NCBI RefSeq assembly: GCF_000718095.1
Contig: NZ_JOEI01000029.1
Span: 1 to 64,000 of the forward strand
Source: Streptomyces scopuliridis RB72
Lineage (GTDB): Bacteria > Actinomycetota > Actinomycetes > Streptomycetales > Streptomycetaceae
Direction of reading: 5' to 3'
DNA: 64,000 nt
Part shown: positions 27,578-36,415 of the stretch, one piece after another
Layout of the letters: each line of letters starts with the position of its first letter
How positions within the stretch are numbered: position 1 is the stretch's first letter
Made by a program: the position numbers and the translations under genes
Notes under the pieces: generated by a model
Told to the model about the DNA's origin: nothing
Database searches by the model: none
Seen by the model: the letters and a program-made list of their open reading frames with translations, nothing else

Positions 27578-29482
27578 ATGGCGGTCCATGTCCGTATCCG
27601 CATAACCGTGTTGACGCTGTGTCTCGCGCTTGCGGCAGTGCTGGTCGCCGCGCTGCCGGCCGGCGCCGAGCCTGCCGTCTGGAAGGTCTCCGCCCCGTCC
27701 GCGCATGCCGGGCACGGCCCTGGCGCCGTACTGAGACTCGATCCCTCCAACGGCAGCCCATCGCTGGAGGTGACCCACGACGGGCAGACCGTCATCGAGC
27801 CCTCTCCCCTCGGAATCGTCACGGAAAGAGCCGACCTCTCCACCGGGCTGCGCCTTCTCGGGCGCAGCGACCGTAAGGTCTCCGAGTCGTACCGCACCAC
27901 CGTCGGCAAGGACCGCACCCGCCATGCCCGGATGACTGAGGCGCGCTTCCGCTTCGGCACCGCGGACGGCGCCAGGCTCGATCTGCTCGTGCGGGTCTCC
28001 GGCGACGGCGTCGCCTACCGCTATGTCCTGCCCGCCGACACCGGCGATGTGGTCGGCGAGACCTCCGCGTTCACCCTGCCCGCGGGCTCGGCGGCCTGGC
28101 TCGGCAAGTACCGGAGGGACAACGAGAATCTGTTCGCCCAGTACGACGCGGCCGGCGCCCCCGCCGGCGAGTACATGATGCAGGCGCTGTTCAAGGCCGG
28201 TGACAGCTACGCGCTGGTCGCGGAGTCCGACCTCACCGGGACCTACTCGGGCGCGCGCCTCGTGCACGACGCGGGGTCGGTCACCTACCGTGTCAAGCTC
28301 TGGGACGAGCAGGTGCAGGTCGACGGGGCGCTCACCACCCCCTGGCGTGCTGTGATCACCGGCGATCTGGCGACCGTCACCGAGTCCACGTTCGTCGACG
28401 ACCTCGCCCCCGCCTCGAAGGTTCGTGACACCTCCTGGATCAAGCCGGCTCCCGCGCTGTGGACCTGGCTCGCGGGGGGCAGGCCGGCCGGGCAGAGCCT
28501 GGAGAAGCAGAAGGCGTACGTGGACTACGCGGCTCAGCGCGGCTGGCCGTACACCGTGGTCGACGCGGGCTGGTACTTCGACCCGGACCAGTGGGACGTC
28601 ACCGATCCCGACTGGCAGACGAACAGTTGGATGCCGGAGCTTGTGCGGTACGGCCGTGAGCGTGGCGTCGGCATCCAGGTCTGGATCCACCACCGTGACC
28701 TCGACACTCCCGAGGAGCGGGAGCGGTGGCTGCCGACGCTGGAGGAGTGGGGCGTCAAGGGCGTGAAGATCGACTTTATGGACTCCGAGGCGCAGGAGAC
28801 CTTCCGCTGGTACGACACGATCCTGGCCGGGACCGCGGAACACCACCTCCTCGTCAACTTCCACGGCTCGACGATCCCCAAGGGTGTCCACCGCACGTGG
28901 CCGCAGGTCATGACGATGGAGGGCGTCAACGGCGAGGAGAAGAAGACCAATACCCCGGAGCACCTGGCGACGCTCCCCTTCACCCGCAATGTCATCGGTG
29001 GGATGGACTACACACCGGGTGCCTTCCAGCGTGCGGAGCGTCCCAACGCGGCTTCTGACGCTGGCGAGTTGGGGCTTTCCGTGCTCTACGAGTCCGGCAT
29101 CCAGAACCTTGCGGGCACGCCGGAGTCGTACGACGAACGCCCCGAGGCCCGGCGCTTCCTGGAACAGATCCCGGCGGCCTGGGACGAGACGAAACTACTG
29201 GCGGGTGACCCGGGCAAAGGCGCGGCCCTGGCCCGGCGCGACGCCGAACGCTGGTTCATCGGCGGCATCTTCGCCGGGGCAGCCCGCACCGCCGAGGTCC
29301 CGCTGCGCTTCGGCCACGGCAAGTGGCTGGTGGAGACGGTCACCGACGGCCCCGGTGGCCTGGTGCGCAAGGGCAGGGTGCTGCGCGGTGATACGAAGCT
29401 CTCCGTGCCGGTGGTCGCGAACGGCGGCTTCGCCGCGGTGGCGTGCCACTGGTATCAGGGCCGTACCAGCTGCGACCGCTGA
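27578..29482 (+). CDS. Secreted GH97 glycoside hydrolase (alpha-galactosidase/alpha-glucosidase family)
   Basis: A 634-residue exported enzyme with a Sec signal (TVLTLCLALAAVLVAALPAG). The N-terminal GH97 beta-sandwich covers residues 30-290 (DENLFAQY-type and EYMMQALFKAGDSYALVAES blocks). The barrel starts near WIKPAPALWTWLAGGRPAGQ and contains YTVVDAGWY, GVGIQVWIHHRD, GVKGVKIDFMDSEAQE, NFHGSTIPKGVHRTWP and VMTMEGVNGEE. The aspartate in KIDFMD occupies the nucleophile place of the retaining, alpha-galactosidase-like subgroup, whereas the inverting subgroup uses glutamates elsewhere; so alpha-galactosidase or beta-L-arabinopyranosidase is more likely than alpha-glucosidase. A GH95 gene follows on the same strand. 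Confidence 0.9.
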   Translation: MAVHVRIRITVLTLCLALAAVLVAALPAGAEPAVWKVSAPSAHAGHGPGAVLRLDPSNGSPSLEVTHDGQTVIEPSPLGIVTERADLSTGLRLLGRSDRKVSESYRTTVGKDRTRHARMTEARFRFGTADGARLDLLVRVSGDGVAYRYVLPADTGDVVGETSAFTLPAGSAAWLGKYRRDNENLFAQYDAAGAPAGEYMMQALFKAGDSYALVAESDLTGTYSGARLVHDAGSVTYRVKLWDEQVQVDGALTTPWRAVITGDLATVTESTFVDDLAPASKVRDTSWIKPAPALWTWLAGGRPAGQSLEKQKAYVDYAAQRGWPYTVVDAGWYFDPDQWDVTDPDWQTNSWMPELVRYGRERGVGIQVWIHHRDLDTPEERERWLPTLEEWGVKGVKIDFMDSEAQETFRWYDTILAGTAEHHLLVNFHGSTIPKGVHRTWPQVMTMEGVNGEEKKTNTPEHLATLPFTRNVIGGMDYTPGAFQRAERPNAASDAGELGLSVLYESGIQNLAGTPESYDERPEARRFLEQIPAAWDETKLLAGDPGKGAALARRDAERWFIGGIFAGAARTAEVPLRFGHGKWLVETVTDGPGGLVRKGRVLRGDTKLSVPVVANGGFAAVACHWYQGRTSCDR

Positions 29483-29685
29483 GGCGTGTCGCGGAACCAG
29501 CGCCGTCACGCCCGCGGGGCGGGGCCTGCGCCCGCCGCGGAGCGGCTGATGTCACCGCCGTGCGTGCCGTCGCGAGGCGGAGGATCGGCGTCGTCGACGG
29601 CCCGGACGCACGCGGGCCACACCTTCTTCCAACGGGACAGCTCGGATCAATCACGCCATCTTCGTATGAGGCGCCGGGAGGCATC

Positions 29686-32040
29686 ATGGCCACTGCACCA
29701 GATCCGTCGAGAAGGGCCCTGCTCGCTACAGGCACCGCGCTGGGCGGCGCGCTGGTCGTGGGAGGCGGCAAGTCCGCGTCGGCCCAGGCTGTTTCGCCCG
29801 CCAGGGAATCCGGATCACCACGGACCGCGCCGGTGGAACCACACGTATCCCCGGACATCTGGCGCACCGTGCTCGACGACGCCGACCCGGTATGGCAGCG
29901 GATGCCGAAGACCTGGTACGAAGGCCCGTTCCTCGGCAACGGCTTCCTCGGCTCCGGCATCTACGCCGAACCGGGCGGGAACGCGGTCCGCTTCAATGTC
30001 CAGCATTCCGAAGTCCAGGATCACCGGCCCGAGTTCGGTTCGCTCTTCGGCCTTGCCCGGCTGCCGATCGGTTACTTCACGCTGGAGCCCGTCGGTACCA
30101 TCACCGGCGTCGACTGGCGGCTGCGGCTGCGCGACGTCGAGCTGACCGGCACCCTCACCACCACCGCGGGCTCCCTGACGCTGCGCGCTTTCGTACACTC
30201 CTCGACCGACCTGCTCGCCGTCGAGGTCACGCCGAGCGAGGGAGAGCGCGGCTTTCGCTGGGTCTTCCACCCGGCCGTGGCGATCAGCCCGCGTGCCGCG
30301 TCCAAACCCCTCCCCCCGGGATACGTGGCCAATCCACCGGCCACGATCGAGCAACACGGAGACGTGACCGCCGCCGTACAGCCGCTGCTCGCGGGCGGCC
30401 GGCATGTCACCGCCTGGCAGGAAGTGGCTCGCCACGGCAGGCGCACCCTCTATGCGACGGTCGCGCACTCCCATCCGGCGACCACCGCCCGTGACCGTGC
30501 GCTGCGCGCCGTGCGGACAGCTCGGGCGGTGCCGTACGACGTGCACGCGCTCCCCCACCGCGCGTGGTGGCAGCGCTACTACCGGAAGGGCTTCCTGTCG
30601 CTGCCCGACGCCCGGTTGCAGCGCTTCTACTGGATCCAGCTCTACAAGGTCGCCGCGGCCGCCCGCAAGGACGCGCCGGTGATGGCGACTTCCGGGCCGT
30701 GGCTGGAGCCGACGCCCTGGCCCAACACCTGGTGGAACCTCAACGTCCAGCTTGAGTACTGGCTGATCCACGGCTCCAACCATCTCGAACTCGACGCCGT
30801 CACACGTGCGTTGAGTGAATTCCGGGATCAGCTGGGTGCGGAGATCGCCGCTCCCTATCGTGGGGACTCGTACGGTATTCCGCGCACCACCGACCCGCAG
30901 CTCGTCAACGGTGGCGCCACGTCGGGAGATCTGGGCTACGGCGTCGGCATCCCCGGCCAGGACTCACCCACCCCCGAGGTCGGCAACCTCACCTGGGCAC
31001 TGCACAACGTCTGGCTCAGCTACCGGCACACCATGGACGAGGCCATCCTGCGCGATGTCCTCTTCCCGCTGCTGCGCAAGGCCGTCAACTACTACCTGCA
31101 TTTCCTGACCCCCGGCACCGACGGCAAACTGCATCTCCCGGCGACCTTCTCCCCCGAGTACGGGGTCAACGCGGCCGACTGCAACTACGACCTGATGCTG
31201 CTGCGCTGGGGTTGCCGTACCCTCCTCGACTCAGCCGAACTGCTGGGCAAGCGGGACCCGTTGGCGAACCGCTGGCGCGAGGTGCTGGCCAAGCTCACGC
31301 CGTACCCGGTGGACGGCAACGGTTACATGATCGGAGCCGGGGTCCCCTTCGCCAAGTCACACCGCCACTACTCGCACCTGCTCGCCGTCTATCCGCTGTA
31401 CGAGGTCACGGGCCGGACAGCGGACGAGCGCGCGCTGATCGAGAAGTCGCTCGCCCACTGGGTCGGCTTCGAAGGAGCCCTCCAGGGCTACACATTCACC
31501 GGTGCGGCCTCCATGTCGGCGCTCCTCGGCAAGGGCGACGACGCGCTCAGCTATCTCGGTCAACTGATGACACGCTTCATCCAGCCCAACACCATGTACA
31601 AGGAGTCGGGCCCGGTCATCGAGACCCCGCTGTCCGCCGCCCAGTCGCTGCACGACATGGTGTGCCAGTCCTGGGGCGGCACGATCAGGGTGTTCCCGGC
31701 CCTGCCCGCCGTCTGGCGCGATCTGGTCGTGCACGACTTCCGTACTCAGGGTGCCTTCCTGCTCAGCGCGGTACGGGAGAAGGGCGCGACCCGCTGGGTG
31801 CGGCTCACCAGCGAGGCCGGCGCCACGTGCCTCGTACGCCACGGCATAGTGGGAGCCATCGAAGTCCGGGATGGCCTGGGACGGCCCATGAGGTTCGAAC
31901 AGACCGGCGAAGGCGAGATCCGCATCCCCCTCCGCAAGGGTGAAGCGGCGCTCATCACCGCGGCCGGCGACGCCCCGGATCTCACCATCCGCCCCGTCAC
32001 ACCCAACGAACCGGCCCTCCGGTGGGGGCTGCCCGCCTGA
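29686..32040 (+). CDS. Tat-exported GH95-family glycosidase (alpha-L-fucosidase / alpha-L-galactosidase type)
   Basis: A 784-residue exported enzyme. The signal SRRALLATGTALGGALVVGG looks twin-arginine. Residues about 60-280 form the N-terminal sandwich (WYEGPFLGNGFLGSGIYAEP is the GH95 opening). The helical barrel shows WWNLNVQLEYW, aligning with the family NINTQMNYW whose two asparagines activate water. SPEYGVN is near the acid region, SHRHYSHLLAVYPL matches the HRHxSHL block, and DMVCQSWGGTIRVFPALP matches the end of the barrel. The start at 29686 has GGGAGG five bases before it; the frame is open 81 codons further up but overlaps the GH97 gene. The gap to GH97 is 203 bases. Confidence 0.85.
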   Translation: MATAPDPSRRALLATGTALGGALVVGGGKSASAQAVSPARESGSPRTAPVEPHVSPDIWRTVLDDADPVWQRMPKTWYEGPFLGNGFLGSGIYAEPGGNAVRFNVQHSEVQDHRPEFGSLFGLARLPIGYFTLEPVGTITGVDWRLRLRDVELTGTLTTTAGSLTLRAFVHSSTDLLAVEVTPSEGERGFRWVFHPAVAISPRAASKPLPPGYVANPPATIEQHGDVTAAVQPLLAGGRHVTAWQEVARHGRRTLYATVAHSHPATTARDRALRAVRTARAVPYDVHALPHRAWWQRYYRKGFLSLPDARLQRFYWIQLYKVAAAARKDAPVMATSGPWLEPTPWPNTWWNLNVQLEYWLIHGSNHLELDAVTRALSEFRDQLGAEIAAPYRGDSYGIPRTTDPQLVNGGATSGDLGYGVGIPGQDSPTPEVGNLTWALHNVWLSYRHTMDEAILRDVLFPLLRKAVNYYLHFLTPGTDGKLHLPATFSPEYGVNAADCNYDLMLLRWGCRTLLDSAELLGKRDPLANRWREVLAKLTPYPVDGNGYMIGAGVPFAKSHRHYSHLLAVYPLYEVTGRTADERALIEKSLAHWVGFEGALQGYTFTGAASMSALLGKGDDALSYLGQLMTRFIQPNTMYKESGPVIETPLSAAQSLHDMVCQSWGGTIRVFPALPAVWRDLVVHDFRTQGAFLLSAVREKGATRWVRLTSEAGATCLVRHGIVGAIEVRDGLGRPMRFEQTGEGEIRIPLRKGEAALITAAGDAPDLTIRPVTPNEPALRWGLPA

Positions 32041-32232: not shown

Positions 32233-33135
32233 TCAGCTCGCCAGCGGCAGCGCCTTCCGCGACGGCACCGTGCTCAGCAGCTCCGCTCCCACCGGCTCCC
32301 CGCTGTCCGCGTCAAGGAAACTGACGCGGACGACGGGGTCGCCGGGGGTGTCGCGGCTGGACGTGGCGTCGAGTGCGAACACCACGGAGACCGGCCAGGC
32401 CCCCTCCGCTGTCTCGTACACACCCGAGAACAGGAGAATGCGCCAGCCGTCCTCCTCCCAGTGGTCCAGCAGAGCCGACCGGACCACAGGGGAAGCGGCC
32501 TGCCAGGCAAGGGAGTTCTCCAGCAGTTCGACGCTCGCGGCGACCGGCACCCGGTCTCCCGCCCCGGTGCCGAAGAGCGGATGCCCGAAGACACGCAGCC
32601 TCGCCCGACGCAGCGGCAGCAGCCACCACCGGTCGAGATCGGCCGAGAGCGCTATCAGTACGACCGCGGCGGCGGCCAGGAATCCAAGCGACCCGGCGGG
32701 CCGCCCGGAGACCGTGGACCACCAGCTGCCGTGCGCCACGGCCGCCGCCACACCGCTCACCAGCACCACCGCGGCGCGTGCGAACGCGCGCCAGGTGATC
32801 GGCGTGTCCTCGTTCGCCGAGCAGCCGCACGAGGACTCCGGGGCGAGCGCCCGCCCGTAGCCGAGATAGCCGAGAAAACCCGCGCCGAGGAGGGCGGCGG
32901 CCGCCCCCGGCAGCGGGTTGGCAGGTACGGCCAGCAGCCCCGCGGCGATGAGCAGTTCTCCGGCGCCGACGCCGCGCAGCACCAGCGCCGCTCGCTCGCT
33001 GCTGCTCAACATGCGGGCCAGCGCCGTCTTCGGTGCCCCGAGCACGGTGCCGCGGCTGAACAGCTTGACCGCGCCGGTCCAGCCCAGCAGACCGGCAAGG
33101 ACCAGCGGGGCGAGGCCCGTTGTCAGTGAGAGCAT
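32233..33135 (-). CDS. MauE/DoxX-type redox-associated membrane protein with a soluble C-terminal domain
   Basis: A 300-residue protein. The first half has about five hydrophobic segments (LAPLVLAGLLGWTGAVKLFS; GAAAALLGAGFLGYLGYGRA; AAVVLVSGVAAAVAHG; FLAAAAVVLIALSADLD). A cysteine pair, ESSCGCSANED, lies between helices at about residue 100, as in MauE, which helps form disulfides during maturation of exported quinoproteins. The last 120 residues are a soluble domain of unknown kind. The start at 33135 has GAGGAGG upstream; a longer frame overlaps the preceding gene. It is the third gene of an operon with a Tat-exported protein (28-base gap) and a protein with 16 cysteines, suggesting it manages their redox state. 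Confidence 0.75.
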   Translation of the reverse strand: MLSLTTGLAPLVLAGLLGWTGAVKLFSRGTVLGAPKTALARMLSSSERAALVLRGVGAGELLIAAGLLAVPANPLPGAAAALLGAGFLGYLGYGRALAPESSCGCSANEDTPITWRAFARAAVVLVSGVAAAVAHGSWWSTVSGRPAGSLGFLAAAAVVLIALSADLDRWWLLPLRRARLRVFGHPLFGTGAGDRVPVAASVELLENSLAWQAASPVVRSALLDHWEEDGWRILLFSGVYETAEGAWPVSVVFALDATSSRDTPGDPVVRVSFLDADSGEPVGAELLSTVPSRKALPLAS

Positions 33136-33163
33136 CTCTCCGTCTTCCTCCTCGATCCCGCTG

Positions 33164-33781
33164 TCAGTGCCCGACCGAGATACGGACGACATCCACGGAG
33201 TTGTCGGACGGCCGCCAGGCCCCGAGGACCTGGGCACTCTGCCCGATGCGCAACTGGGACAGGTCGGACGTGAGCGCGCGGCCCGCGTACGAGGCGTTGG
33301 TGGTGGCCGGAAGGACGTTGCCGACGACTTCGTGCTGACCGTGGGCGAGGTGGAGCCGGTTCTTCGCGATGCCGCGGATCTGGGTGTCGAGGTTCACGAT
33401 GTTCACCCACACGGCGTCGGCGGCTATGGTGCCATCGGGCATCGGTACACCGCGGGCGTAGAGCCCGTCACCGATCTCGATCGCCGCGGCGGAGGTGGCG
33501 CGGACCTTCCACACACTGGTGGCGTTGGTCATCTGGACACGCGCGTGGTCACCGTAGGAGCCGGCGACCTCCAGGATGCTGCCGGTGATGCCGGTGATCC
33601 GGCCCTCCACGAAGGAGGACTTCGCGATGGCGGGGTCGAGTGACGGCTCGGCGGCGAAGGCGGCGTCGGCGTCGATGCCGCCGAGCGCGGTCGCGCCGAT
33701 GATCGTGGCGCCGCTGAGGGCGGCGGTGGTGAGGAAGCGACGGCGGCCCAGGCCGCGGCGGTCCTCCTGACGAGAGGTCAT
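33164..33781 (-). CDS. Tat-exported beta-rich protein of unknown function (cell-wall-protein-like)
   Basis: A 205-residue protein with a clear twin-arginine signal (GLGRRRFLTTAALSGATIIG) cut near AAFAAEP. The mature part is predicted all-beta: FVEGRITGITGSILEVAGS, DGLYARGVPMPDGTIAADAV, VNIVNLDTQIRGIAKNRLHL, then GQSAQVLGAWRP. The pattern resembles OB-like DUF5666 modules, but I am not sure of the family. It has no cysteines in the mature part, in contrast to its neighbour. The ATG at 33781 lies 14 bases after the upstream stop; the 129-codon longer open frame is antisense-like reading through the cysteine-rich gene in another frame and is rejected. Confidence 0.75.
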   Translation of the reverse strand: MTSRQEDRRGLGRRRFLTTAALSGATIIGATALGGIDADAAFAAEPSLDPAIAKSSFVEGRITGITGSILEVAGSYGDHARVQMTNATSVWKVRATSAAAIEIGDGLYARGVPMPDGTIAADAVWVNIVNLDTQIRGIAKNRLHLAHGQHEVVGNVLPATTNASYAGRALTSDLSQLRIGQSAQVLGAWRPSDNSVDVVRISVGH

Positions 33782-33795
33782 GTCCGCGTCCCTTC

Positions 33796-34218
33796 TCACT
33801 CGTAGATGTAGACCGGCAGCTTGCCGGAGCTGAGGTTGCCGATCGCCGAGAAGGCGGCCGGGGTCAGATCCAGGACGCGGTTGGTGCGGCAGGCGCCGTT
33901 GCAGCAGGCGGCCTCGCCGCACCATTCCTTGGTACGCGGTCCGCAGTCGGTGATCGTGATGCATACCGTGGCGCCGGAACACTGGTGTCTGACGTTCATC
34001 ACGGCACCGCAGCCGCGTCTGGGTATGTTCTCGCCGCACAGGTCGGGCCGGGTGATGTCCCAACATGCCTGTGACGCGTTGGGCCAGGCGCCGTGGTTGG
34101 CGCTTGACCGGCAGTTGCCGCAGGCACCGCCGCCGGCGCTGCCGCACGGCCCCCACGAGGATCCGCAACAGAACCAGCTCGTTTCACCAGCCCACAGGCT
34201 GGTCGATCCGCAAGCCAT
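33796..34218 (-). CDS. Cysteine-rich RlpA/barwin-like double-psi beta-barrel protein
   Basis: A 140-residue protein containing 16 cysteines. The N-terminal 45 residues are small, aromatic and cysteine-rich (WFCCGSSWGPCG, GACGNCRSS). The C-terminal part carries a double-psi barrel signature: VCITITDCGPRTKEWCG, then NRVLDLTPAAFSAIGNLSSG and KLPVYIYE, with the aspartate and the DLTPAAF block as in RlpA and expansins. There is no signal peptide, yet so many cysteines imply an oxidised, exported protein. Transport together with the Tat partner encoded next is one possible answer. The start at 34218 has AGAGG about nine bases upstream. First gene of a three-gene operon ending with a MauE-like redox protein. 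Confidence 0.72.
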   Translation of the reverse strand: MACGSTSLWAGETSWFCCGSSWGPCGSAGGGACGNCRSSANHGAWPNASQACWDITRPDLCGENIPRRGCGAVMNVRHQCSGATVCITITDCGPRTKEWCGEAACCNGACRTNRVLDLTPAAFSAIGNLSSGKLPVYIYE

Positions 34219-34357
34219 CGTGCCGCCTCTCTCAGTTCAGATTGACGCGTACATGACAAATTCAGGAGAAGGTCGTGCGCTCGAAGCAACCCCATGATGC
34301 TGATGTCTACGCGCGTTGGCTAGAGGGCACCTTGAGAGTCTGTCAGGTGATCTCTGA

Positions 34358-35025
34358 TCGGTCGCCGCCGCGGCGGTCGCCGCCGCCTGGTGGATGGCCG
34401 GCCGCGTGCCGCGTCCGGTACGCCATGTCACCGAAACCGCGCGGCTTCTCTCCGCCACGAACCTCCACGAGCGCATCGCCCTGCGCGCGCCTCCCGGCGA
34501 GCTGAAGGTACTCGCCGACACCTTCGACGAGATGCTCGACCGCATACAGCAACTCGTCAACGCCCAGCAGAGGTTCGCCGCCAATGCCGCACACGAGCTG
34601 CGCACCCCCCTGGCCCTCCAGCGGGCCGCCGCCGAGACAGGTCTCGCGGGCAACCCGGATGCCCGGCGGGTAGCGCGGATCCGTACCAAGCTCATCGAGA
34701 CGTCCGAGCACCAGGGACATCTGATCGAGGGCCTGCTGCTCCTCGCCGCGTCCGAGCAGGGCATGCGACGCCAGGAGCCGGTCGACCTGCACGAGGTCGC
34801 GCACGCCGTGGTCCTGGCGGCCGGCCCCGAAGCGGCCGACCATGACGTGACACCGCACCTCGATCTCCGGCCCCTGCGGACCACGGGCGACCCCGTTCTG
34901 CTCGAACGGCTGGCGCACAACCTGGTGAGCAACGCGATTCGTCACAACCATCCGGGCGGCAGTGTCACCGTCCGCACCGGCGCCGGTTGTCTGGAGGTGA
35001 GCAACACGGGACCCGTGATCCCCCC
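34358..35025 (+). pseudogene. Two-component sensor histidine kinase, truncated at both ends
   Basis: The frame opens right after a TGA at the end of a transmembrane helix (VAAAAVAAAWWMAGRVPRPV). It continues through HAMP (LLSATNLHERIALRAPPGEL), the dimerisation helix with the phospho-histidine (ANAAHELRTPLALQRAAAET) and the N-box of the ATPase domain (LVSNAIRHNHPGGSVTVRTG). It leaves the family pattern after EVSNTGPVIPPG, so the G1/G2 ATP-lid boxes are lost. The sensor domain, first membrane helix and response-regulator gene are also missing. An ATG at 34394 could give a 262-residue product, but it would have no complete catalytic domain. Confidence 0.75.
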
Positions 35026-35182
35026 CGGCACGCCTGGGCCACCCGGCTTATGGCGCGTACCGCGGGCTCGGCGTTCGTCAGCCGGCCGTCCTGGTGGCCC
35101 ACGCCGAGACACATCAGGCCGAGCCGGCGGTGCGTGGGGCCCGGCGTGGGGTAGTGCATCCCCCGGTCGACGGCCGCCGTAG

Positions 35183-36415
35183 TCAGTCTCCGCGCGGCCC
35201 CCGGAAGTCCACCGAGGTGACGAGGGCGTAGTCGAAGTAGATCGGGTCCCCCTCCTCGTCCATCGGGGCCGTGCGCCGGGACAGCCGGCCGTCCGGCGTC
35301 CACTCCAGCCGGGTGACGGAACCGGCCGCGTCGGCCGACTCGTGGGGCCGCCCGAAGGCGTCCCGGGTGAGGGTGTACGTGGCGCCCTGGGAATCCGTGG
35401 CCGACAGGGTGAGTCCTGCGGGATCGTTGACCCGCCGCTCCGTCACGCCGTTGGAGAAGGTCACCGTGGCCGGGGCGCCCGTCGTGTCGTAGGCGTAGCT
35501 GGTTGACGTTCCGTCCGGGGCCGTCACCGACAGCCGGTTCCCTCGGTCGTCGAAGGTCTGCCGTCAGACGGACCCGTCCGGGCCCGTGACCGCTACGGGC
35601 AGATGCCGCTCGTCGTAGGCGGCCGACGCGCGGCGCCCGTCGGGCAGGAGCATCGTGATCAGGTCGCCACGCTCGTCGTAGCCGAACTCGGCGGTGTTGC
35701 CGAGTTCGTCGGTGCGGGAGAGCGGATTGTCGTAGCGGTCCCAGGTGAACAGCACGGTATGACCGCGGGCGTCGGTCTCGGCGACGGTCTGGCCGAGGCT
35801 GTTGAACCGGGTGACGGTCACCGCACTGTAACCGTCCTGAACACCGGCGATGTTCAGCGCGGTCTGGATCGCCAGGTCGGCGACGGTGTTCTCGATCGCG
35901 GCAACCGCGGGCTCCGTGAGCGTGGCGACGATCTCCGAGACGGCCGCCTCCGCCATCTCCTTCAGGATCCGCTTGAACGCGATCCGGGTTGCGGCGATCT
36001 TGGCGCCGGCCAGCAGCGTCGACAGGCCGGCCGTCACCGGTGCGAACGCCAGCGTGATGCCCACCGTGGCGCACAGGTCCGCCAGTTCGCCCACTGCGGC
36101 GATCTTGCGGGCGACGATGATGTCGGCGACCCGGTCGAGCGCACCGGCCACCAGACGGGCCGCCCTGGCCAGGTCCTTGTGCTTGCCCTGCACCTTCGAC
36201 CAGTGCTTGTCCAGGGCGGTCAGCGACTCGCTCTGCCCGCTGGAGAGCAGTTTCTGTATGTGCCCGTACGCGGTCCCCGCGTCGTCGTCCGCGTCGTCCG
36301 CGAACTCCCGCAACGAGTCCGCCATGTCGCGGTACGCGTCCTCGTCCACGTTCGGTCAGCCCACACCGACGACATCGAGCATCGTGTCGACGCCCTCAGG
36401 AATCGTGTACCCCAC
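35183..36415 (-). pseudogene. RHS/WXG100-type polymorphic toxin gene relic with two Trp-to-TGA stops
   Basis: From a GTG at 36415 the frame reads VGYTIPEGVDTMLDVVGVG, a TGA (36356-36358), then PNVDEDAYRDMADSLREFAD. The helical, ESX-like N-terminal domain runs to about 35900 (hydrophobic AFAPVTAGLSTLLAGA). RHS repeats follow (GQTVAETDARGHTVLFTWDR, YGYDERGD-like, AYDERHLPVAVTGPDGSV). A second in-frame TGA lies at 35564-35566, then RQTFDDRGNRLSV, further repeats and an end at 35183. Relatives have tryptophan at both stops (VGVSWPN; a W before RQ in repeat text), so single G-to-A changes explain them. Family members have tens of repeats and a C-terminal toxin; only a few repeats remain. Confidence 0.8.

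Follow-up and report, generated by a model that had tools for sequence, protein, structure and literature searches.

On the minus strand of Streptomyces scopuliridis RB72 (contig NZ_JOEI01000029.1), an operon of three genes, here named A, B and C, was analysed within a window of 64,000 nucleotides (the whole stretch, positions 1 to 64,000 of the contig). The genes encode a cysteine-rich barrel protein without signal peptide (A), a protein with a twin-arginine translocation (Tat)-type signal (B) and a MauE-type membrane protein (C), and they form a cassette of constant order. In the account proposed here, which we rate as a whole just short of an even chance, A and B are a Tat carrier pair with their own redox membrane protein, C. 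B, targeted to Tat, would act as carrier: in the cytosol it would bind A, which is rich in disulfides and has no signal of its own, and the two would cross the Tat translocon together in folded form (hitchhiker export). The membrane protein C, its Cys-Gly-Cys (CGC) motif and extra domain facing the cytosol, would handle A's thiols ahead of export, most likely by forming disulfides; A would then already be folded on inspection by Tat. Once outside, A would bind glycans in the manner of loosenins or expansins, in the cell wall or close to it.

Conservation of the A-B-C cassette

Relatives of A were collected from genome contigs by an alignment scan (best 80 of 207 confirmed relatives), and 88 loci were compiled from the window, these 80 contig loci and seven loci of a second family. 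The contig loci bear the names of Streptomyces and relatives; L102-L107 are labelled Kibdelosporangium, Amycolatopsis, Herbihabitans and Actinosynnema, which we take to be Pseudonocardiaceae. Co-occurrence was counted in 150 genomes of the family to which the window belongs (Streptomycetaceae, as judged from the homologues) and in 120 genomes of the second family. The latter was taken as Streptosporangiaceae, because in the comparison with named proteins A of 6/7 genomes was closest to that of Nonomuraea, and because one region in a further genome of this family shares 86% identity with Nonomuraea gerenzanensis. Micromonosporaceae were represented by protein matches only (P0079, P0081, P0256).

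B directly followed A in all 80 contig loci and C followed B in 79, the exception (L097) being a contig end; C was cut by the contig end in a few other loci. Chance adjacency is excluded by this order, kept across 80 loci. A, B and C were each found in the same 26 of the 150 Streptomycetaceae genomes, in the same order and on the same strand, and close forms of all three in the same 7 of the 120 second-family genomes, again in the order A-B-C, which is also present in Nonomuraea gerenzanensis. The earlier note on this DNA had proposed a dedicated three-gene system and had suggested checking whether the genes are routinely apart in other genomes; the check was run, adjacency was kept, and the proposal is upheld by these counts. 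The 33 genomes with the set are not independent lineages: some genomes are common to both samples and many are closely related, so the co-occurrence counts are not independent events. Weak matches were set aside in the window's family (one second match for A, one further genome for B) and were treated apart or set aside in the second family (A in 6 genomes, B in 3, C in 25).

Neighbouring open reading frames (ORFs) of at least 90 amino acids, up to 6 kb on each side of the 88 loci, were grouped into 189 clusters, shorter ORFs lying outside this test. The largest cluster covered 12 of the 88 loci, and the 11 clusters spanning families covered at most 5 loci each. No neighbour gene approaches the constancy of A-B-C; neither further members of the set nor other conserved mau genes were found among these clusters. 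A wide scan of 396 genomes of the phylum with alignment A1 returned one weak match besides the genome of the window itself, and a scan of 394 genomes of the class with P0081 returned five strong and five weak matches; absence is poorly tested by these scans, since only 10 candidates were scored for most genomes. A plasmid link was seen in one record only, an 11.85-Mb Nonomuraea replicon listed as plasmid and carrying A-B-C.

Table 1. Features of the operon and their positions in the window
Feature	Position	Strand	Basis
Gene A, 140 residues, 16 Cys, double-psi beta-barrel, without signal peptide	33796..34218	-	DPBB_1 match, short upstream frame, conservation, model
Gene B, 205 residues, Tat-type signal, no Cys, mature part predicted as two OB-like barrels	33164..33781	-	
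RRRFL twin-arginine motif of B, residues 13-17	33731..33745	-	R13 and R14 invariant in alignment A3 (57 sequences)
Gene C, 300 residues, MauE-type membrane protein with C-terminal soluble domain	32233..33135	-	Pfam, hydropathy, charge counts
CGC motif of C, residues 103-105	32821..32829	-	invariant in 83 aligned orthologues
C-terminal part of C following hydrophobic segment five, about residues 167-300; predicted on the cytosolic side	32236..32637	-	
Conserved element TTGTCATGTACGCGTCA upstream of A, candidate operator or promoter element	34243..34259	-	only exact copy in 8.24-Mb assembly

Properties of the three proteins

The three genes are as the earlier note had described them (Table 1), including the spacing of exactly 14 bases between A and B (33795-33782); the gap between B and C is 28 bases. 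A is a single-copy gene in the window's genome. It scored 31.7 bits against Pfam DPBB_1 (PF03330; curated cut-off 28.8), and its predicted model is a folded barrel with a predicted local distance difference test score (pLDDT) of 88.6. Only six codons are open upstream of its ATG (146 amino acids from stop to stop), so no signal peptide can hide before A, and 18 of the 88 loci have at most 16 open codons before the alignment start. Two of the 75 loci having at least 12 upstream codons (L038, L101) encode a hydrophobic run of 12 residues within the last 40 of these codons, and this run looks chance-like. The median number of residues ahead of the WFCCG motif is 14 in 136 database homologues, and a hydrophobic run occurs there in one of them, P0002, whose prediction is over-extended upstream.

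For the cysteine counts of A, fragments and mixed frames were excluded (P0034, P0067, P0086-P0089, P0091), and P0002, P0016 and P0017 were additionally excluded from alignment A2. Fourteen cysteines are each kept in at least 96% of 137 aligned sequences. Cys3 is present in 52 of the 137, and 51 of these also have Cys86 (39) or, mutually exclusive with it, Cys84 (12); both are absent in all 85 sequences that have no Cys3. The association of Cys3 with Cys86 gave a Fisher P of 2.4e-23, uncorrected for the kinship of the sequences. Descent alone hardly accounts for the switch between Cys84 and Cys86, which agrees with residue 3 being bonded to the strand 84-91 of the model. We read this pairing as a disulfide signature, and the cysteines of A look like structural disulfides. 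The total is not always even (15 in 44/137, 17 in 17/137), so that a spare cysteine is common. No histidine is invariant in the alignment.

In a structure comparison of the model, the fold of A was closest to 4avr, a phage baseplate barrel, kiwellin, loosenin, expansins and the Streptomyces papain inhibitor (SPI). A has a single DPBB fold, as expected of a loosenin-like single barrel. With 140 residues, one domain and 15.2 bits against NCBIfam expansin_EXLX1 (cut-off 100), it is not a two-domain expansin. RlpA lytic transglycosylases are exported lipoproteins with a SPOR domain in many members; A does not fit this pattern, since it has no signal peptide and DPBB_1 is its sole Pfam match at E up to 1. 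A distant relative of A with 42% identity, 22 cysteines and no signal peptide was seen in a protein of a Methylomirabilota metagenome-assembled genome (P0090), labelled as outside Actinomycetota. A viral origin of A was considered and rejected, as no relative was present in the viral contigs searched.

Near its start, B carries GRRRFLTTAALSGATIIGATALGGIDADAAFA (GRRRFL motif). The twin arginines are present in all 120 B homologues listed (of 625 found) and were recognised automatically in 86 of the 88 loci; the remaining two, inspected by eye, are a tblastn frame slip and a frameshifted record. Among the 120 listed homologues, 74 have no cysteine and 46 have one. The Tat signal was called from the motif and the hydrophobic run, and B scored 12.3 bits against the NCBIfam TAT model, below its cut-off of 16.7; export of B by Tat is very probable. 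For DUF5666, B scored 14.8 bits and the L102 orthologue 16.6 (cut-off 27), and the L105 orthologue gave no score. No MelC1 domain was found in B with Pfam at E up to 1. A role of B as metal carrier was dropped, the OB-fold matches being too generic.

C scored 42.4 bits against Pfam MauE (PF07291; cut-off 27), and its average hydropathy has five hydrophobic segments. Lysines and arginines were counted in 83 aligned C orthologues, a set that excludes truncated, short or N-containing sequences. Their mean number was 0.2 in the N-terminus, 6.2 in loop 1, 0.1 in loop 2, 2.7 in loop 3 (with CGC), 1.1 in loop 4 and 5.3 in the tail. This amounts to 14.3 in the loops assigned inside and 1.4 outside, with the same sign in 83/83 orthologues and a minimum difference of 9. 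By the positive-inside rule, the CGC motif and the tail are predicted on the cytosolic side, with the N-terminus out. Tat cargo is normally folded before export. The earlier note placed the oxidation of A by C after export; given the predicted cytosolic position of the CGC motif and extra domain, this order is changed here, and C would act on A before export, consistent with the fold-first rule of Tat. That C acts on the cysteines of A at all is somewhat likely, and for the cytosolic face as the place of this action the chances appear balanced.

Another MauE gene was noted at L195, after position 1501, having a CQC motif with preceding basic residues and a charge pattern similar to that of C. 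It lies beside an ORF of 68 amino acids with eight cysteines and a leader-like start (1222-1428), and the locus looks like a peptide-modification cluster.

B-A fusions and rival explanations

When the C protein of a second-family member was used for a search, weaker relatives of C were found in 25 further genomes, many covering the MauE part and the extra domain. Fifteen of 28 weaker matches, picked from the better ones and excluding G618, were fetched; one lies in G925, which also has the split set. In 14 of the 15 loci, the gene just upstream of the distant C relative is one ORF of 313-414 amino acids in which B and A are fused. The sole fetched locus without an upstream B-A fusion was L227 (G927 C1 9049000-9056000). 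In profile comparisons, from whose alignment L219 was excluded by length, the N-terminal half matched B (P 1.6e-10, probability 96.9) and the C-terminal half matched A (P 7.2e-8, probability 94.6); the crossed controls gave P 0.44 and 0.5. Single-profile HMMER searches of the fusions with A gave E values from 1.8e-6 to 0.58 (million-sequence scale). From the fusion stop to the estimated start of C, the distance is -4 to +4 bases in 12 of the 14 loci, and 11 and 49 bases in the other two. Nonomuraea gerenzanensis has both forms in the same record, the fusion and C relative at 875-881 kb and the split set at 230 kb.

Gene fusion of B and A is a Rosetta-stone case for a complex of the two proteins, and from these sequences a physical A·B complex is probable. 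The idea of the earlier note that A rides on B gained support from the fusions beside a C relative, and joint export of A with B, as judged from the genes, is moderately likely. The charge bias of C recurs in its relatives (12.0 lysines and arginines inside vs 1.9 outside, 15/15), which have arginines shortly before CGC.

Several observations weigh against the proposed account. The topology of C is a prediction made solely from charge counts, and the classical four-segment MauE proteins of related genomes (L176-L184) have, by eye, a weakly opposite charge sign. A CxC pair without a second conserved cysteine pair or a visible quinone site is a meagre basis for an oxidase. The HMMER comparison of the fusions with B was weak (best E 0.037 on the million-sequence scale, 10/14 reported). 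The fusions begin with RRR[LF]TAALLG or similar (RWR in 2/14), and the uncharged run after these arginines is 1-14 residues long vs a median of 21 in 57 B sequences; since the remainder of a signal peptide is absent, a cytosolic role is conceivable, and the fused relative may stay in the cytosol. As for the cell wall, the suggested role of A is derived from the likeness of a predicted fold, with weak PDB sequence matches (best E 0.062 and 0.018), and a glycan-related function is accordingly put forward as a tentative proposal.

In a different arrangement, which we consider unlikely though the strongest of the rivals, A would be resident at the inner membrane face, and the three proteins would make up a redox or sensor module on the cytosolic side, with C as its docking site; the Tat signal of B would then serve another purpose or a minor pool. 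The fusions without complete signal peptide agree with it, as does the CGC motif on the predicted cytosolic side in both split and fused variants. Further, in 13 aligned fusions the equivalent of D117 is never Asp (Glu 7, Gln 4, Ser 2) and that of D91 is Asp in 4, which makes a non-catalytic role possible and would suit such a module. It conflicts with the twin arginines and full signal kept in B of the split-form loci and with the behaviour of the A cysteines as structural disulfides, which are unusual in the reducing cytosol. In the order of the earlier note, with A riding out on B and being oxidised outside by C, the same cassette evidence would be explained, and in the classical MauE proteins (L176-L184, by eye) weak charge signs point to an outside CGC. 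This order appears rather improbable, given the opposite charge bias of C in 83/83 orthologues (minimum difference 9) and the fact that Tat cargo is usually pre-folded, A having 14 core cysteines.

A further reading has A as a metalloprotein, B as a MelC1-like metal-loading caddie and C protecting or delivering thiols for the metal instead of disulfides. Against it, Cys3 comes and goes together with Cys86 or Cys84, which fits disulfides; A has no invariant histidine, and the OB-fold matches are generic at this Z. We regard this as improbable. More remote still is A as substrate of a peptide-modifying pathway of the kind that makes ribosomally synthesised and post-translationally modified peptides (RiPPs), as has been suggested for other Streptomyces pairs of MauE and a protein rich in cysteine. 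Clusters combining mauE with precursors of that kind, described in parts of PMC7794033, and the MauE gene beside the eight-cysteine ORF at L195 speak for such a pathway; A is a folded barrel (pLDDT 88.6) without a leader, and no modifying enzyme is conserved nearby among the 189 neighbour clusters of the 88 loci, which makes it very improbable.

Known systems and the surroundings of the operon

The pairing proposed for A and B has known counterparts. In Streptomyces, MelC2, which has no signal peptide, is exported in complex with its Tat-tagged operon partner MelC1, according to parts of PMC2758597; parts of PMC10924467 describe subunits that have no tag and are exported through a partner that has one, and such hitchhiker complexes are also the subject of PMC4273604 and PMC6719666. 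The MelC pair shares with A and B a cargo without signal peptide and an operon partner with a Tat signal; A and B differ from it by the lack of a MelC1 domain in B, by a barrel rich in cysteines as cargo and by the accompanying third gene of MauE type. Hydrogenases, formate dehydrogenase, PaoABC and the flavin adenine dinucleotide (FAD) glucose dehydrogenase with its hitchhiker subunit have the same untagged/tagged pairing, but their cargoes are redox enzymes; here the set has a disulfide-rich barrel and a redox-type membrane protein. To our knowledge, most known cases of Tat hitchhiking concern redox enzymes. A cassette with a disulfide-rich cargo and its own redox-type membrane protein would raise the question of how an actinomycete makes disulfides at the inner membrane side.

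C resembles the MauE of methylamine dehydrogenase maturation in its Pfam match above the cut-off and its link with a cysteine-rich protein, and differs in having no conserved mau neighbours, a fifth hydrophobic segment, a C-terminal domain and a CGC motif predicted as cytosolic. As far as we know, the biochemistry of MauE-type proteins is hardly known, and the cassette would offer a simple three-part test system for them. A differs from loosenins, expansins, kiwellin, SPI and PA4485 by 14 core cysteines, an inserted cysteine-rich loop and the lack of a signal peptide.

The earlier note knew of no description of such a system. None of this three-gene set was found in the open-licence literature, and the Tat partner, the B-A fusion and the inverted topology of C are undescribed as far as that literature shows. 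The Tat partner is not mentioned in the available parts of a 2020 genome-mining paper (PMC7794033); the same parts report Streptomyces gene clusters with mauE homologues and precursors of at least eight cysteines, so the pairing of MauE with a cysteine-rich protein is not wholly new. These decRiPPter candidate clusters resemble the cassette in having a MauE gene beside a small cysteine-rich protein in Streptomyces; no Tat partner or barrel is described in the available parts.

A bolder version of the proposed account, for which the odds are clearly unfavourable, is a natural fold-first export device, in which an inverted MauE-family protein makes the disulfides of the cargo inside and hands the cargo to a Tat-tagged OB-fold carrier; the fused B-A form of Nonomuraea and related genomes would then be a non-exported sister. 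If true, nature makes use of what engineers constructed with CyDisCo plus Tat, and the cassette could supply a natural part for secreting folded disulfide-rich proteins. CyDisCo uses a soluble oxidase. In engineered E. coli, YebF requires disulfide formation in the cytoplasm for its export by Tat (parts of PMC9995818), and CyDisCo with Tat export is also the subject of PMC6350376. Both systems would have cytosolic disulfide formation followed by Tat export; the published one is engineered, with added folding factors, and here a natural membrane protein would do it.

Upstream of the operon, the conserved element (Table 1) recurs as TTGTCATGNNCNNG[TA]CA before A in many other Streptomycetaceae loci. 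It lies 40-60 bases ahead of the start in 31 of 45 aligned upstream regions, an alignment that excludes sites less than 40 bases from the start. In this form it was not seen in L102-L107, the seven second-family loci and several Streptomyces loci (e.g. L062, L065), and no published motif matching it was found. A regulon governed through this element was considered and not adopted. One-mismatch copies number eight in the window's genome vs one on the reversed control; one of the eight is clearly just before a gene, for a lytic polysaccharide monooxygenase (LPMO), and another is inside a signal-peptide-like coding stretch. The former copy (L208, 1501-1517) starts 28 bases ahead of the LPMO_10 and CBM_2 gene (1529-2605) and could reflect chance or a shared polysaccharide-related regulator.

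A GH95-type glycoside hydrolase gene (window 29443-32040, plus strand), not widely common to other loci, is convergent to the operon. On the other side (34394-36349), the operon adjoins what by eye look like remnants of two genes, one for a sensor kinase on the plus strand and one for an RHS-like protein on the minus strand, which suggests that this region has been rearranged.
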